Below are positions 1 through 7,689 of a stretch of 8,017 nt of DNA, one piece after another. Both the position numbers and the translations under genes were made by a program. A model generated the notes under the pieces. The model did not search any database. It worked only from the letters and a program-made list of their open reading frames with translations, and was not told where the DNA came from. Position 1 is the first letter of the stretch. Every line of letters starts with the position of its first letter. The stretch is from NCBI GenBank assembly GCA_900770015.1, contig CAAGIU010000088.1:1-8017 (forward strand), read 5' to 3'. Origin of the DNA: an uncultured Oscillospiraceae bacterium (GTDB lineage: Bacteria > Bacillota_A > Clostridia > Oscillospirales > Oscillospiraceae).

Positions 1-117
1 GATACAAGAGTATCCTCGAACTGTACGAGCGTGCACTTATGCGATTGAACCGCCGTATACCGAACGGTACGTACGGTGGTGTGAGAGGTCGGCTAGGTAT
101 CTAGCCTCCTACTCTAT
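1..117 (+). mobile_element. Group II intron, 3' end only (partial, enters from left)
   Basis: This is the 3' terminal part of a self-splicing retroelement whose body and reverse transcriptase gene would lie left of the window. It is recognised from RNA structure: a domain V hairpin (49-80) is followed directly by a domain VI hairpin (83-114) with a single bulged A at 111, and the intron would end in AT at 116-117. Bases 1-46 should be the tail of domain IV. One frame (from base 3 to the TAG at 102-104) stays open through domain V, but nothing shows that it is the true end of the maturase. The intron is antisense to the liv operon, and its 3' splice site is 7 bases from the livF stop codon. 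Domain V has a CGC-type triad, which fits bacterial class C introns, but class cannot be proved from this fragment. Confidence 0.85.
47..117 (+). ncRNA. Group II intron catalytic domains V and VI
   Basis: Domain V: bases 49-57 pair with 72-80 over nine pairs, including a G52-U77 wobble inside the C51-G52-C53 triad position. An upper stem (59-61 with 66-68) and a bulge at 69-71 follow the usual domain V plan. Domain VI: 83-85 pair with 112-114, then A111 is left bulged, 86-88 pair with 108-110, and 91-96 pair with 101-106 around a GTAT loop. The bulged A, seven nucleotides from the 3' end counting itself, is in the position of the lariat branch-point adenosine. Both domains look intact, so this end could still be splicing-competent. 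Confidence 0.85.
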
Positions 118-2921: not shown

Positions 2922-3827
2922 TCAGACCTTGTCGGTGGCCTTTTCACCGAAAAGACCGGTGGGCTTGCAGGTGAGAATGACGATGAGCAGCGCGAAGGTG
3001 AAGGCGTCGGAGAACACGGACACATTCCAGGACGAGGGCAGACCCTTGATGATGGTCTCGCAGATGCCGATGAGGAATGCGCCGATCACCGCGCCGGGGA
3101 TGGAGCCGATGCCGCCGAAGACCGCCGCCACGAAGGCCTTCAGACCGGGCATGGCGCCGGCGGTGGGGGTGATGGCGGGGTAGGTGGTGAAGTACAGAAT
3201 GGAGCCCACCACGGCAAGACCCGAGCCGATGACGAAGGTGGTGGAGATGACGCTGTTGATCTTGATGCCCATGAGACGGCTGGTCTCAAAATCCTTGGAC
3301 ACAGCCCGCATGGCCATGCCGATCTTGGTGTGGTTGATGAGCTGGGTCAGCAGGGCGATGAGCACCAGCACCAGCACCGGAGTGATGATGACCACCAGCT
3401 TGGTGGAGGTACCGGCGATGTTGACGGTTCTGGTCAGGGCGTTGATGGCCGGATACGTCATGGGCTGGCCGCCGGTGACATAGGTGGCGGTGTTCTGCAG
3501 CAGATAGCTGACACCGATGGCGGAGATCATGACGGACATTCTGGGGGCGCTGCGCAGGGGCTTGTAGGCCGCCCGCTCAATGAAGAAGCCCAAAGCCACC
3601 GTCAGGGCGATGACCACGGGAATTGCCACATAGATGGGCACGGCGGCGGAGACGTAAATGCCCAGCAGACCTGCCACCATGAACACATCGCCGTGGGCAA
3701 AGTTGATCAGGCGCAGAATGCCGTAAACCATGGTATAGCCGATGGCAATCAGCGCCAGCTGGCCGCCCAGGGAGATGCCGCTGAGCAGAATGGATATCAG
3801 ATATTCGGCGGAAAACAGTTGTTCCAT
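2922..3827 (-). CDS. livH: Branched-chain amino acid ABC transporter, permease LivH
   Basis: Integral membrane subunit that pairs with LivM to form the channel; 301 residues, normal for the family. Diagnostic segments are the N-terminal IGYTMVYGILRLINFAHGDV (29-48), the coupling loop GMAMRAVSKDFETSRLMGIK (170-189), and GLKAFVAAVFGGIGSIPGAVIGA (228-250). The start ATG at 3827 has GGGAGG 8 bases upstream (3836-3841). That ribosome binding site directly abuts the outer arm of the 132-bp structured element that separates livH from the binding-protein gene, so folding of the element could influence initiation here. The livH/livM junction is only 13 bases, consistent with coupled translation. Confidence 0.95.
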   Translation of the reverse strand: MEQLFSAEYLISILLSGISLGGQLALIAIGYTMVYGILRLINFAHGDVFMVAGLLGIYVSAAVPIYVAIPVVIALTVALGFFIERAAYKPLRSAPRMSVMISAIGVSYLLQNTATYVTGGQPMTYPAINALTRTVNIAGTSTKLVVIITPVLVLVLIALLTQLINHTKIGMAMRAVSKDFETSRLMGIKINSVISTTFVIGSGLAVVGSILYFTTYPAITPTAGAMPGLKAFVAAVFGGIGSIPGAVIGAFLIGICETIIKGLPSSWNVSVFSDAFTFALLIVILTCKPTGLFGEKATDKV

Positions 3828-3835
3828 AGAGGAAG

Positions 3836-3841
3836 CCTCCC
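3836..3841 (-). promoter_or_regulatory. livH ribosome binding site at the base of the structured element
   Basis: GGGAGG on the minus strand, 8 bases before the livH ATG. The base immediately 5' to it on the mRNA (3842) is the last nucleotide of the CAGATAAAT outer arm. If the outer stem forms, the ribosome binding site lies exactly at the foot of a multi-branched structure. Confidence 0.75.
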
Positions 3842-3973
3842 ATTTATCTGGAAGCTCTGGCGCAATCCGCCGCAGGGCAGAGGATTGCGCCGGAGCTTCC
3901 GGTTAGCAGTCGTATTTCCTTGGAAATACGACTGTTGGCGGGGGCGTGGCCCCCGCCAAGCAATCAGATAAAT
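3842..3973 (-). repeat. 132-bp intercistronic element: outer inverted repeat with three hairpins
   Basis: This element fills the gap between the binding-protein gene and livH. Outer arms ATTTATCTG (3842-3850) and CAGATAAAT (3965-3973) are exact reverse complements. Inside are three hairpins. The first has 19-base arms, 3850-3868 and 3882-3900, with one mismatch (a G-U type wobble on one strand) and a 13-base loop. The second has 13-base perfect arms, 3907-3919 and 3922-3934. The third has 11-base perfect GC-rich arms, 3935-3945 and 3949-3959, with a 3-base loop. Almost every base is paired, giving a four-way-junction or cruciform shape on either strand. No hairpin is followed by a T-run on the minus strand, so it is not a standard intrinsic terminator. 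It starts 18 bases after the binding-protein stop and ends 14 bases before livH. Likely roles are mRNA 3'-end protection of the binding-protein transcript or a mobile palindromic repeat; the family is not identified. Confidence 0.9.
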
Positions 3974-3991: not shown

Positions 3992-5173
3992 TTACTGGGA
4001 AGAACCGGTCTGGACGGTCTCCAGCACCCAGGTGCCGTTAGCCGTGTCGGCGGTCTTGATGTAAGCGGTGTCGCGGACGGCGTCGCCCTGCTCGTCAAAG
4101 GCGATGGCGCCGGAAACGCCGGTGTAGGTGACGGAGGGCAGGATCTTCATCAGAGCGGCCTTGTCGCCGGAGTCGGCCTTCTTCATGGCCTCCAGAGCCA
4201 CGAAGTAAGCGTCATAGCCCATGGCGGTGACGGCGGAGATGGTGTCGTTGCCGCCGTTGGCAGCCAGAGCCTCGGCGTTGTCGTTGATGTACTTCTTGAT
4301 GCCGGCGTCGAACTCAGCGGAGCCGCCTTCCTGATAGAAGGTGGAGACATACAGCTGCAGGTCGGTGCCCTTGATGGCGTCGAGAACCATGTTGTCGTCC
4401 AGGGTGTCGGAGCCCAGGAAGGGGATCTCCAGACCCAGGGAAGCGGCCTGCTTGATGATCTGCACGGCATAGGCGATGGACACGGGGGTGAAGATGACGT
4501 CGGCGCCCTCGCTCTTGGCCTTGCTCAGGTAGGAGCCGAAGTCGGAGTTGCCGGTGGGGAAGGAGTCGGTGATGACCTTGCCGCCGTTGGCCTCGAAGAC
4601 CTGCTTGAAGAAGGCCACCAGACCCTGGTCGTATTCGTTGCCGCTCTCGCCCAGGCAGTAGGCGGTCTTGGCTTCGAACTTGCTCATGGCGAAGTTGGCC
4701 AGAACGTCGGCCTGGAAGTTATCCAGGAAGCAGATGCGGAAGTAGTAGCTGTTGCCTGCGGTGACGTTGGGGTTGGTGCAGGTGACGCCGATGGCGGGGA
4801 TGCCGGCCTCTTCAAACTTGGGGCCGCCGGCCATGGAAACGCCGGAGCCGTAGGAGCCCAGAACCACGCTGACGCCTGCGCTGACCAGAGAGGAAGCAGC
4901 GGAGGGAGCCTTGTCGGTGGTGGAGCCGTTGTCGCCGTAGACCAGCTCGATCTTATAGGTCTGGCCGCCCAGGGTGACCTCGGGAACCAGGCTGTTGGCG
5001 TACTGCATACCCAGGATCTCCTTCTTGCCGCCGGAGGCAGAGTCACCGGAGGAAGGCTCGAAGACGCCGATCTTGATGACCTTGGAGTCGGACGCGGCTT
5101 TGCCGGAAGAGCTGCAGGCAGCCAGGGACAGAACCATGCACAGTGCCAGGATTACGCAAAGAACTTTTTTCAT
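3992..5173 (-). CDS. livJ: Branched-chain amino acid ABC transporter, substrate-binding lipoprotein
   Basis: Extracytoplasmic receptor that captures the amino acid and delivers it to LivH/LivM. It is a type I periplasmic-binding fold of the LIV family, 393 residues. The signal peptide MKKVLCVILALCMVLSLAAC ends in lipobox LAAC, so mature protein should begin at lipid-modified Cys20, followed by a Ser-rich tether. Mature features include KIGVFEPSSGDSASGG near the N-terminus, the VVLGSYGSGVSMAG ligand-loop region (103-116), AIGVTCTNPNVT (127-138), and a GYDAYFVALEAM helix (319-330). The frame is open 31 codons further upstream, but only the ATG at 5173 gives a lipoprotein signal; it has GGAGG 8 bases upstream. 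It is the first gene of the liv operon, behind the 5238-5266 promoter. LivJ versus LivK type, and the exact ligand, cannot be decided from sequence alone. Confidence 0.93.
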   Translation of the reverse strand: MKKVLCVILALCMVLSLAACSSSGKAASDSKVIKIGVFEPSSGDSASGGKKEILGMQYANSLVPEVTLGGQTYKIELVYGDNGSTTDKAPSAASSLVSAGVSVVLGSYGSGVSMAGGPKFEEAGIPAIGVTCTNPNVTAGNSYYFRICFLDNFQADVLANFAMSKFEAKTAYCLGESGNEYDQGLVAFFKQVFEANGGKVITDSFPTGNSDFGSYLSKAKSEGADVIFTPVSIAYAVQIIKQAASLGLEIPFLGSDTLDDNMVLDAIKGTDLQLYVSTFYQEGGSAEFDAGIKKYINDNAEALAANGGNDTISAVTAMGYDAYFVALEAMKKADSGDKAALMKILPSVTYTGVSGAIAFDEQGDAVRDTAYIKTADTANGTWVLETVQTGSSQ

Positions 5174-5194
5174 TTTCAGATCCTCCAATCGAAG

Positions 5195-5221
5195 CAGACA
5201 TCCGCTTGCTGCGGACATCTG
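5195..5221 (-). promoter_or_regulatory. Leader hairpin in the 5' UTR of the liv operon
   Basis: An imperfect 27-base palindrome. Arms CAGA and TCCGC pair with GCGGA and TCTG around a 5-base loop, with a symmetric 2-base internal loop. It lies within the predicted leader of about 58 bases and ends 8 bases before the GGAGG ribosome binding site of the binding-protein gene. There is no T-run after it, so it is not a terminator. It may stabilise the 5' end or tune translation. Confidence 0.55.
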
Positions 5222-5237
5222 TTTCCAAGATAAGGAG

Positions 5238-5266
5238 ATTATAATGAATGGTTTTAAAAATTGCAA
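5238..5266 (-). promoter_or_regulatory. Predicted housekeeping promoter of the liv operon
   Basis: On the minus strand, TTGCAA (5261-5266) is followed by a 17-base spacer and a perfect TATAAT (5238-5243). Transcription would start near 5231, giving a leader of about 58 bases. The -35 box matches four of six consensus positions. Confidence 0.8.
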
Positions 5267-5504: not shown

Positions 5505-7643
5505 TCAGAAAAGTCCCGGAAGTTTCAGGAAATTTTCCCGGCGGCTCAGGGCGACGGTGCACTTTTCACAGACATATCCGCCGATCAGACCCTCCGGGCC
5601 GTGATCGTCGAAGGTGCCGCCGCAGCGGGTGCAGCCGGGGATGCGGACGATCTTGGGCTGCATGATGTAGAACTGGCCGCCGCCGGAGAGCAGCGCCGCC
5701 CGGGAGAAGCGGTCGGTTTTGTGCCCCGGGAGCTTGCCGTAGTTGTAGATGTTGGAGTCCCGGACCTCAAAGGTGTCGTCCTCCTCGTTGTAGGCCTGCA
5801 CCAGCAGGTAGTGTCCGCTGGAGGTGAAGATCCCCTTGACCTGCAGACTGATGACCACCTGACCGCTGCGCAGGGCTTCGATGACCTGGTCGATGTCAAA
5901 GACCGTTCTGTCCGTATAGAAGCCCAGCTCCGCAGGGGCTTTGGAGAAGATGGAGCCGTCGGTGCTGGTGCCCACCTGAAATTTGGAAAACTGCTGGGCC
6001 ATCATGTGGGGCGTCTGGATGGAATCGGTCATATAGGTGGCCAGCATGGCAAAGGCGGTGATGCCGCAGCCGTTTTTGCCGATCTGCACATAGCCGAAGG
6101 GGGAGTACATGTAGTCCTGCTGGAGATAGACGATGGCCTTGGGGAAGCGCTGGTGCCCCACGTCGGGGTAGAGCACGTCCTGAAGCGAAAAGTCCCCGGT
6201 TTCGGTCCACAGGGCGGCCTTGCTGTAATCGGCCTGTATGGGCAGCATAGCCTCCCGCCAGAAATCGATCTCCTTTTCCAGCGTCAGCGCCTCCAGTGCG
6301 TTGGCCTCCTCCACGGGGATGATGTCCTTGAGGTAGACGATGTGCACGCCATATTCCGACTGAAGCAGCTCCGAGTCACCCACTTTCCGGCTTTCATCGA
6401 AGCACCACGTATCCAGTACTTCGGTGAGCTGCCCCTGGCGGATGTGGCTGTAAAAGCCGCCATCCAGCCGGGAGCCTTCGTCCGCGGATTGTTCGGATGC
6501 CAGCTGGGCAAAGCTGGCGTCGGGATTGGTCTTGGTCAGATCCTGAGCCTTCCAGACATTCATCTGGTACTCGGCCAGCCGGAGGCAGGCGCTCCACTGG
6601 CTTTCGGTGGCCGTGACGGTGCCGTCTTCGGCAACCTCAGCCCCCTCCGGGATCATCAGGATGTGGCGGAAATCCACCAGCTTTTCCCCGGAGGGCTGGG
6701 AATCGGCCAGGTATGCGGCGATTTCTTCCTCAGTCACCTCCACGTCATAGCTTTTTTCCGTAAAGTACATATAGCTCAGATTGTAATCCGTGGCCATGTC
6801 CACCAGCATTTCGGCGGAAACATCAGAACCGAAGACGGCCTGGGCATAATCGGAAAGGCTTCCGTAGCCCCGCTGCGCCGCCAGTGCTGCCAGAGTGGCT
6901 TCCAGTTCGTCCAGATAGGCCTGATGCAGGGCGTTGGGGGTGTAGCATTCCCTGTCGGCATAGAGGAAATCATTGACGGGTAGCTCCGGGGCGATGTACT
7001 TGGCGTGGAGGGTGTCGGTCTGGTCGGGCTTGTAGGCCTCCTCGGTGATGATCTGGGGCTGGGCGGCGGCATCCAGGATGGTCTGCCGGATCTGCCAGCT
7101 GCGGACAGCCTGCTGCAGGAAGTAGTGCTGCCAGGACAGGTCCCCGCTGCCCAGCGGGCAGAGCTGGGTGTCCAGCGGCTGGCTGAAATCCGGGGCAATG
7201 TCGTTATCTGCCTGCCGGTAAGCGTTCACGGCGGTGAGATAGAGCACCTGCAGCTCCCCATTGGTCAATGCTTCGGAGCCCATGGTGGCCACCACAGCCG
7301 ATGGATCGGCGGTTTCGCTGAGATAGCTTTCCCTGCAGCGGATGCTGGCGGGATTGCCGTCGGCGGTCACCACAGGGACGGCGGGGATGGTCGTCTCCTG
7401 GGCATCCTCGGTGGCTTGCGTTGTCCCGACAGTTCCGGCGGTCTCGACAGCCCCGGTTGTCTCGGCAGTCTCGGGAACCTCGGTCTGCGGTGCCGTCTGC
7501 GTGACGGCGACGGCAGGCTCGGTGGGGATGCTCAACCGGTAGCTTATCCAGAGGAACGCGGAGGCGGCTGCCAGGATCATCAGCACCAGCAGCACGGTTA
7601 CGACGGTTCTGCCGCCCTTTTTCTTCTTTTTTGTCTTGCGCAT
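5505..7643 (-). CDS. Membrane-anchored parvulin-type foldase fused to a C39-like cysteine peptidase and zinc ribbon
   Basis: About 712 residues; residue numbers here count from the upstream ATG at 7649. A Lys/Arg-rich start and one membrane segment (15-36) without lipobox Cys suggest a signal anchor facing outward. A low-complexity Thr/Glu/Val linker (about 42-92) follows. Residues 117-315 resemble the SurA/PrsA N-terminal chaperone region (VVATMGSEALTNGELQ). Residues 326-441 form a PpiC rotamase domain: FRHILM with H329, FAQLASEQSAD (380-390), DGGF (396-399), YGVHIVYL with H436. Residues 500-665 look like a C39-like (C39_2) papain-fold peptidase: Gln510/511 as oxyanion residue, Cys528 in KNGCGITAF, His613 in SSGHYLLVQAY, Asp631 in VRDSN. 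A tail with C673, C676, C694 and C697 resembles a zinc ribbon. The ATG at 7643 is preferred because AAAGGA lies 7 bases upstream, against 1-2 bases for 7649. It has its own promoter. The substrate is unknown. Confidence 0.88.
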   Translation of the reverse strand: MRKTKKKKKGGRTVVTVLLVLMILAAASAFLWISYRLSIPTEPAVAVTQTAPQTEVPETAETTGAVETAGTVGTTQATEDAQETTIPAVPVVTADGNPASIRCRESYLSETADPSAVVATMGSEALTNGELQVLYLTAVNAYRQADNDIAPDFSQPLDTQLCPLGSGDLSWQHYFLQQAVRSWQIRQTILDAAAQPQIITEEAYKPDQTDTLHAKYIAPELPVNDFLYADRECYTPNALHQAYLDELEATLAALAAQRGYGSLSDYAQAVFGSDVSAEMLVDMATDYNLSYMYFTEKSYDVEVTEEEIAAYLADSQPSGEKLVDFRHILMIPEGAEVAEDGTVTATESQWSACLRLAEYQMNVWKAQDLTKTNPDASFAQLASEQSADEGSRLDGGFYSHIRQGQLTEVLDTWCFDESRKVGDSELLQSEYGVHIVYLKDIIPVEEANALEALTLEKEIDFWREAMLPIQADYSKAALWTETGDFSLQDVLYPDVGHQRFPKAIVYLQQDYMYSPFGYVQIGKNGCGITAFAMLATYMTDSIQTPHMMAQQFSKFQVGTSTDGSIFSKAPAELGFYTDRTVFDIDQVIEALRSGQVVISLQVKGIFTSSGHYLLVQAYNEEDDTFEVRDSNIYNYGKLPGHKTDRFSRAALLSGGGQFYIMQPKIVRIPGCTRCGGTFDDHGPEGLIGGYVCEKCTVALSRRENFLKLPGLF

Positions 7644-7689
7644 AAGCATTTCCTTTCGGATGGTCCTCGTGTTTCATTTCGAACAATTC

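Follow-up and report, generated by a model that had tools for sequence, protein, structure and literature searches.

A composite hairpin element between the binding-protein and livH genes of a clostridial liv operon, a candidate for setting the receptor-to-permease ratio

Stem-loops behind binding-protein (SBP) genes have been described in Clostridia, where the accessible part of PMC9045158 reports 191 of them from eight cellulolytic members, whose GC stems are long and which contain few U residues. The stem-loops tested there in Ruminiclostridium cellulolyticum stopped 20.7-96.1% of transcripts, and one stem-loop without a U tract ceased stopping transcription. From these experiments, as far as the accessible text goes, SBP-downstream stem-loops were found to set the receptor-to-permease ratio in that organism (PMC9045158). 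In E. coli, the available text of PMC5927463 covers five ABC systems in which the binding-protein gene was invariably the stabilised one. The portion of PMC8632094 that was accessible deals with ilv motifs and contains neither SBP nor livH.

We examined a liv (amino-acid uptake) operon from an uncultured Clostridia bacterium in the window (the whole 8,017-nt stretch of DNA that was analysed). The operon lies on the minus strand and comprises the genes for the SBP, livH, livM and two ATPases, with Pfam matches to one Peripla_BP_6 binding protein, two BPD_transp_2 permeases and two ABC_tran ATPases. An earlier sequence-only reading had placed a paired element between the binding-protein and permease genes of a liv operon, and the gene identities hold in Pfam. 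The SBP-livH gap measures 164 nt and is mostly occupied by this element at 3842-3973, whose parts are listed in Table 1. Because the operon is on the minus strand, the hairpins follow one another in the RNA, counted from the SBP stop, as H1, H2 and H3. Upstream of the operon, a 714-aa protein with PPIC-type rotamase and C39-like peptidase domains is encoded at 5505-7649 (-). At 48-117 (+), next to where the last ATPase gene ends, an Rfam match to Intron_gpII (RF00029; 46.2 bits) was noted, and a group II intron may lie at this edge of the window.

Table 1. Features of the SBP-livH region, numbered by position in the window.
Feature	Coordinates	Strand	Basis
SBP (binding-protein) gene, Peripla_BP_6	3992-5266	-	ORF list, Pfam
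In-frame ATG, likely SBP start	5173	-	Signal-peptide-like N-terminus, by eye
Outer closing helix, 5' arm	3966-3973	-	Fold and arm analysis
H1 with lower stem GATTG/CAGTC (3961-3965 with 3930-3934)	3930-3965	-	Stepwise folding
H1, 11-bp GC-rich hairpin, 32 nt past the SBP stop	3935-3959	-	Arms, conservation, covariation
Weak U-rich tail GTATTTCC 3' of H1 (relatives: GTATTTT)	3922-3929	-	Alignment, stepwise folding
H2, palindrome of 12-13 bp; 5' arm is the old tail CAGTCGTATTT	3907-3934	-	Fold, arms, alignment
H3, 22-bp hairpin interrupted by two 1x1 mismatches; its end lies 22 nt ahead of livH	3850-3900	-	Fold
Outer closing helix, 3' arm, pairs with 3966-3973	3842-3849	-	Fold and arm analysis
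GGGAGG, likely livH ribosome-binding site	3836-3841	-	Sequence
livH permease gene, BPD_transp_2	2922-3827	-	ORF list, Pfam

The element had been described as almost fully paired over 132 bp and as folding far better than chance, and both statements were borne out on recomputation. Its minimum free energy (MFE) was -89.1 kcal/mol on the plus strand and -86.6 kcal/mol on the minus (transcribed) strand, with z scores of -11.3 and -11.6, and none of 200 dinucleotide shuffles folded as well on either strand. Complementarity was 100% for the outer arms (3842-3850/3965-3973, 9 nt) and for the arms at 3907-3919/3922-3934 (13 nt) and 3935-3945/3949-3959 (11 nt), and 83% for those at 3845-3873/3877-3905 (29 nt). 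The outer helix of the minus-strand MFE fold comprises 8 pairs, since base 3850 pairs within H3; one end of it lies 18 nt past the SBP stop, and its 3' arm stops immediately ahead of the livH ribosome-binding site. This placement would suit a translation bridge, whereby closure of the 132-nt domain would place the livH ribosome-binding site near the SBP stop and let ribosomes continue across the long gap; the span of the helix up to GGGAGG and the 17-26 nt gaps of hairpin-free relatives (below) agree with such a role. However, the outer helix was not kept among the seven aligned genus relatives, and an exact inverted repeat of at least 8, the observed length once 3850 is given to H3, arose in 108 of 20000 base shuffles of both flanks. 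By itself the outer repeat is less striking, and we regard the bridge as very improbable.

Relatives were collected through a LivH scan of genome contigs, many of them from incomplete drafts, and the best 80 of 584 encoded relatives were joined by the genus loci L107, L108, L110 and L112 and the window to give 85 examined loci, every one of which had an SBP match upstream of livH (85/85). The livH starts were placed by script. Nine of the 85 gaps fell below 60 nt. Genuinely short gaps of 17-26 nt occur in six loci (L004-L008 and L016), while in L032, L057 and L079 the livH start was apparently misplaced, and an alternative start in L032 yields a 127-nt gap with strong hairpins present. Hairpin counts were made on the remaining 76 gaps, with a strong hairpin defined by at least 8 bp and -14 kcal/mol or lower; these counts are not fully independent because the L020 and L021 gaps are identical.

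We found at least one strong hairpin in 74 of the 76 gaps (loci mainly from the best 80 of 584 relatives) and at least two in 36, compared to 23.7% and 3.0% of shuffled gaps (20 per gap). The two gaps of at least 60 nt without any strong hairpin belong to L049 and L075. The fold z scores of the 76 gaps had a median of -5.3 and were -3 or lower in 65, with L077 at +0.3. The first strong hairpin started a median of 23.5 nt past the SBP stop (range 4-128); its counterpart in the window is H1, with an 11-bp stem of -22.9 kcal/mol. In the comparison of sister loci that had been proposed earlier, H1 is kept at its site in relatives, and six close relatives (L004-L008 and L016; LivH identity 81-84%) carry no hairpin at all in their short gaps. 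The element is therefore dispensable, and these six loci represent natural losses that can be used for comparison.

Compensatory changes, for which a check had also been proposed, were found for H1. In an alignment of 34 sequences, changes on both sides of the stem with pairing kept occupied 33 cells, compared to 5.3 +/- 2.0 in shuffles (0/500 as high), and partners slid out of register gave 6 cells or fewer. These 34 of the 76 gaps were chosen for the alignability of H1, so the paired share of the alignment is flattered. G.U pairs outnumbered A.C contacts by 12 to 8, a count that says little on which strand is selected. Within genomes, the H1 pattern occurred at a single place in each of eight related genomes picked for a close liv operon (8/8), and control patterns at none. 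When H1 was searched together with its tail at two mismatches or fewer, 6 of 61 genus genomes had a match, once in each; five of these adjoin the close livH by coordinates, and the sixth lies at a contig end directly behind an SBP gene with 88% identity. A close livH was present in 7 of the 61 genomes, the seventh of which (G032) has H1 with an altered tail. H1 is an old conserved feature of this locus.

We then considered the sequence that follows H1, on which the question of termination turns. Across the 34 rows the consensus 3' of the H1 stem reads nnGTnGTATTTT, with T in 27, 29, 27, 24 and 21 rows at columns 96, 98, 118, 119 and 120. Over 74 loci, T per 10 nt was 3.80 behind the first hairpin, compared to 2.66 before it and 1.95 further down, and the count behind was the higher of the first two in 43 loci, the lower in 15 and the same in 16. 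In 50 of the 74 loci, 8 nt with at least 4 T lie together behind H1 (at least 5 T in 24), and the other 24 have no such stretch. Stepwise folding of the window predicted that GATTG and CAGTC pair in the nascent RNA, beneath the GC stem, before H2 is completed, leaving GTATTTCC as a tail; lower pairing of some kind was predicted in 6 of 7 genus relatives as well, L112 being the exception. With 4 U of 8, the window tail is a weaker form of the relatives' GTATTTT, and a rule-based terminator scan of the window did not flag the H1 tail. The sequence-only reading had excluded a terminator because no T-run follows. This conclusion was too strong and is doubtful: its ground fails for the group because the relatives' tail behind H1 is U-rich, although the tail of the window is weak.

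Taken with the fold, these observations suggest that the element is probably a composite intercistronic RNA that raises the binding protein over the permease. H1 would be its leaky internal terminator and would also cap the 3' end. The long GC stem of H1 and its weak U-rich tail would halt a share of polymerases, H1 would shield the 3' end of the SBP mRNA, and the remaining polymerases would read through into livHMGF. H2 and H3, which lie between H1 and the livH ribosome-binding site, might act as a 5' shield of the downstream mRNA or might merely be tolerated, which is a guess. H1 of the window may itself terminate little or not at all, because the stem-loop deprived of its U tract in the accessible data of PMC9045158 ceased to stop transcription. 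The earlier suggestion that a structured RNA sets the receptor-to-permease ratio is probably right, given that H1 is kept and covaries and given the analogy to what is accessible of PMC9045158; the ratio effect itself, like termination and stabilisation, is what we infer beside the observed fold, site conservation, H1 covariation, single H1 place per genome and U enrichment behind H1 in relatives.

The same hairpins could operate through pure RNA processing, with no termination and an endonuclease that cuts where U-rich sequence separates H1 from the second hairpin. H1 would then guard the SBP mRNA against 3' exonucleases, and the second hairpin would guard the 5' end of the livH mRNA, along the lines of malEFG or cip-cel. 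Many relatives do have two hairpins around a U-rich stretch, as the 36 of 76 gaps with at least two strong hairpins attest, and precedents exist both in the E. coli ABC operons, where according to the available text the stabilised gene is invariably the binding protein (PMC5927463), and in C. cellulolyticum, where processing sites with stem-loops set ratios in the part of PMC4423207 at hand. Against this, H2 of the window pairs the stretch and leaves little of it single-stranded, and a terminator would predict the U enrichment seen immediately behind H1. We judge processing without termination to be unlikely.

H2 and H3 show a different history from H1. The sequence 3' of the H2 5' arm CAGTCGTATTT was found to vary among relatives in the alignment, and a clear H2-like hairpin was encountered in only one of the seven genus relatives, L110, where it has 11 bp with G.U pairs and other letters. 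The H2 site is weakly paired in L001, L107 and L108, the stretch is paired another way in L003, and it is unpaired in L002 and L112. As a guess at its origin, a weak palindrome may have been perfected, for instance via template switching. A near-perfect palindrome on a conserved left arm is also what an assembly or sequencing artefact might create, but the independent hairpin of L110 and the presence of H1 in relatives make an artefactual H2 hardly credible.

Searches for copies gave little beyond the liv locus. Among 300 family genomes, all from relatives, 14 had an H2+H3 match at E <= 0.01; all 14 are short and lie within stop-free frames of 146-901 codons, and they are taken as chance for these reasons, so that no real copy of H2 or H3 was found in the 300, with at most three candidates scored per genome, at which weak copies may be missed. 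Searched as a whole against 99 relatives, the element was matched in six, five times by the H1 part and once by 19 nt. Of 13 loci inspected for short matches, L103 and L104 are liv loci and the rest look coding-like by eye; the H2 pattern had no match in viral contigs. From the sequences compared, H2 and H3 look like recent local, lineage-specific additions.

Two sisters do carry a dispersed palindrome in the slot ahead of livH (L002:5830-5980 and L003:5900-5990). Its end pattern GGACGCCGCCCCCTACG, at one mismatch or fewer, gave 70 matches in G002 and 7 in G003, and the pattern is found in 6 of 8 genus genomes (absent from G001 and G062). A Y1_Tnp match was also noted in 6 of the 8 genus genomes; Y1_Tnp is a domain of REP-associated transposases. 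The sequence-only reading had raised a new palindromic repeat family, and a mobile REP-type repeat inserted between SBP and livH would agree with the strong palindromes of the element and with these sisters. However, H1 is confined to one place per genome in 8/8, the short H2+H3 matches of the 14/300 family genomes fall within stop-free frames, and the six whole-element matches among 99 relatives come down to H1 and 19 nt. The proposed copy search, as run on relatives, found H1 recurring at liv only and no real copy of H2 or H3. A mobile repeat is improbable; the 132-nt element is composite, and a new repeat family is rejected for H1 and unsupported for H2 and H3 in the relatives searched.

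The slot that H3 occupies ahead of livH is filled in many relatives by another hairpin, named H_B here, which is of one kind in 24 relatives (GGGCTGCCTCGAAA..TTTCGAGACAGCCC; L015:5921-5974 and 23 further loci) and was noted at L161-L176 as well. Rows were chosen by motif and eye, leaving out L021, whose gap is that of L020, and L033, which fitted poorly. Changes on both sides occupied 59 cells, compared to 17.1 +/- 3.1 in shuffles (0/500 as high) and at most 24 for slid partners. At one position near the base, 17 of the 24 have a C.A mismatch, 4 have U.G and 3 have U-A. There were 43 G.U pairs to 10 A.C contacts, a ratio that points to selection on the sense RNA.

A covariance model of H_B, R1, matched all 20 genomes picked as H_B carriers (20 of the 24), at one place in 16 and with an additional place in four (65.2 bits in G403, 37.8 in G407, 32.0 in G398 and 30.7 in G408; at most 150 candidates scored per genome). 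The additional H_B of G403 (L141, G403:C22) follows an SBP gene at the end of a contig, so that either this draft genome has another liv-type locus or its bin is mixed. An even draw of 250 family genomes, with at most 22 candidates scored in each, included 21 with a match at 1e-7 or better, each at a single place and all between SBP and livH genes; five of the 21 had fed R1. The SBP-livH gaps of 19 further loci gave weak matches only (L018, 19.6 bits; L033, 13.8). The H_B right-arm pattern occurred at 6 places in 5 of 12 genomes, four being liv sites by coordinates and the remaining two G403:C22, behind another SBP gene, and G403:C11.

We also considered H3 as a diverged H_B, and this was rejected: R1 gave no hit on window H3 (3847-3902) up to E 10 with filters off, despite a C.A mismatch near the base in both, and 7 of 17 pairs identical in the mismatch register by hand count were judged close to chance. 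L001, L107, L108 and L110 carry no strong second hairpin. A further possibility is that the slot ahead of livH holds a dedicated, liv-only regulatory RNA, in which H_B, a covarying hairpin whose sequence core is conserved and whose base has a C.A mismatch nearby, would be bound by a protein, RNase or metabolite and adjust the permease against the receptor, and which the window's genus would have lost and replaced. Replacement by a dispersed palindrome in two sisters and by H3 in the window would look as if selection kept a strong hairpin in the slot, whatever its sequence. This possibility remains tentative, and we hold it to be rather doubtful.

Neither the 132-nt element nor nine loci with H_B matched an Rfam family at the gathering score. 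The best sub-threshold Rfam match on the window, to a microRNA model, scored 26.3 bits where the gathering score is 79 and is regarded as chance. A known RNA family was set aside because every low-threshold match on L015 and on the window fell far short of its gathering score. The literature searched, in which few subscription papers were covered, described neither H_B nor this liv element, and the liv-specific H_B has no name in Rfam or in that literature.

Among the systems described, the nearest are the internal terminators of PMC9045158, as judged from its accessible part. H1 resembles them in its SBP-permease position, its long GC-rich stem, a lower stem set off by a short unpaired place, and the receptor excess predicted; its tail may correspond to their low-U tract. 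By analogy it fits this class in place and stem, with the window tail at the weak end and the function inferred. In contrast to the single stem-loops of that accessible part, the window has three hairpins, and many relatives have a second covarying hairpin ahead of livH. What is new here is thus the two-slot design, H_B above all, as single SBP-downstream stem-loops are already known from the accessible part of PMC9045158. The findings would extend a mechanism of cellulolytic Clostridia, with covariation, to the liv operons of a wide and mostly uncultured group of Clostridia, and both H1 and H_B are directly testable for control of the receptor-to-permease ratio.

Other systems share parts of this arrangement. 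The malE-malF REP region of the E. coli malEFG operon, in the available text of PMC5927463, is likewise a palindromic SBP-permease RNA with a protective 3' structure; unlike it, H1 is no repeat, having a single place per genome (8/8). The cip-cel operon has intergenic stem-loops that set operon transcript ratios in Clostridia, but it differs in gene content, and its stem-loops go with processing sites in the part of PMC4423207 at hand, whereas the liv element is not known to have one. Compared to the GTAG-/CGTC-tagged REPs in the accessible portion of PMC3733652, the second slot of L002 and L003 is alike in holding a dispersed palindrome containing GTAG; it lacks the unpaired GTAG-REP tag because GTAG lies within the stem. 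Window H3 differs from those REPs in having no GTAG at its base, no unpaired GTAG or CGTC tag beside it by eye and no copies found in the relatives searched.
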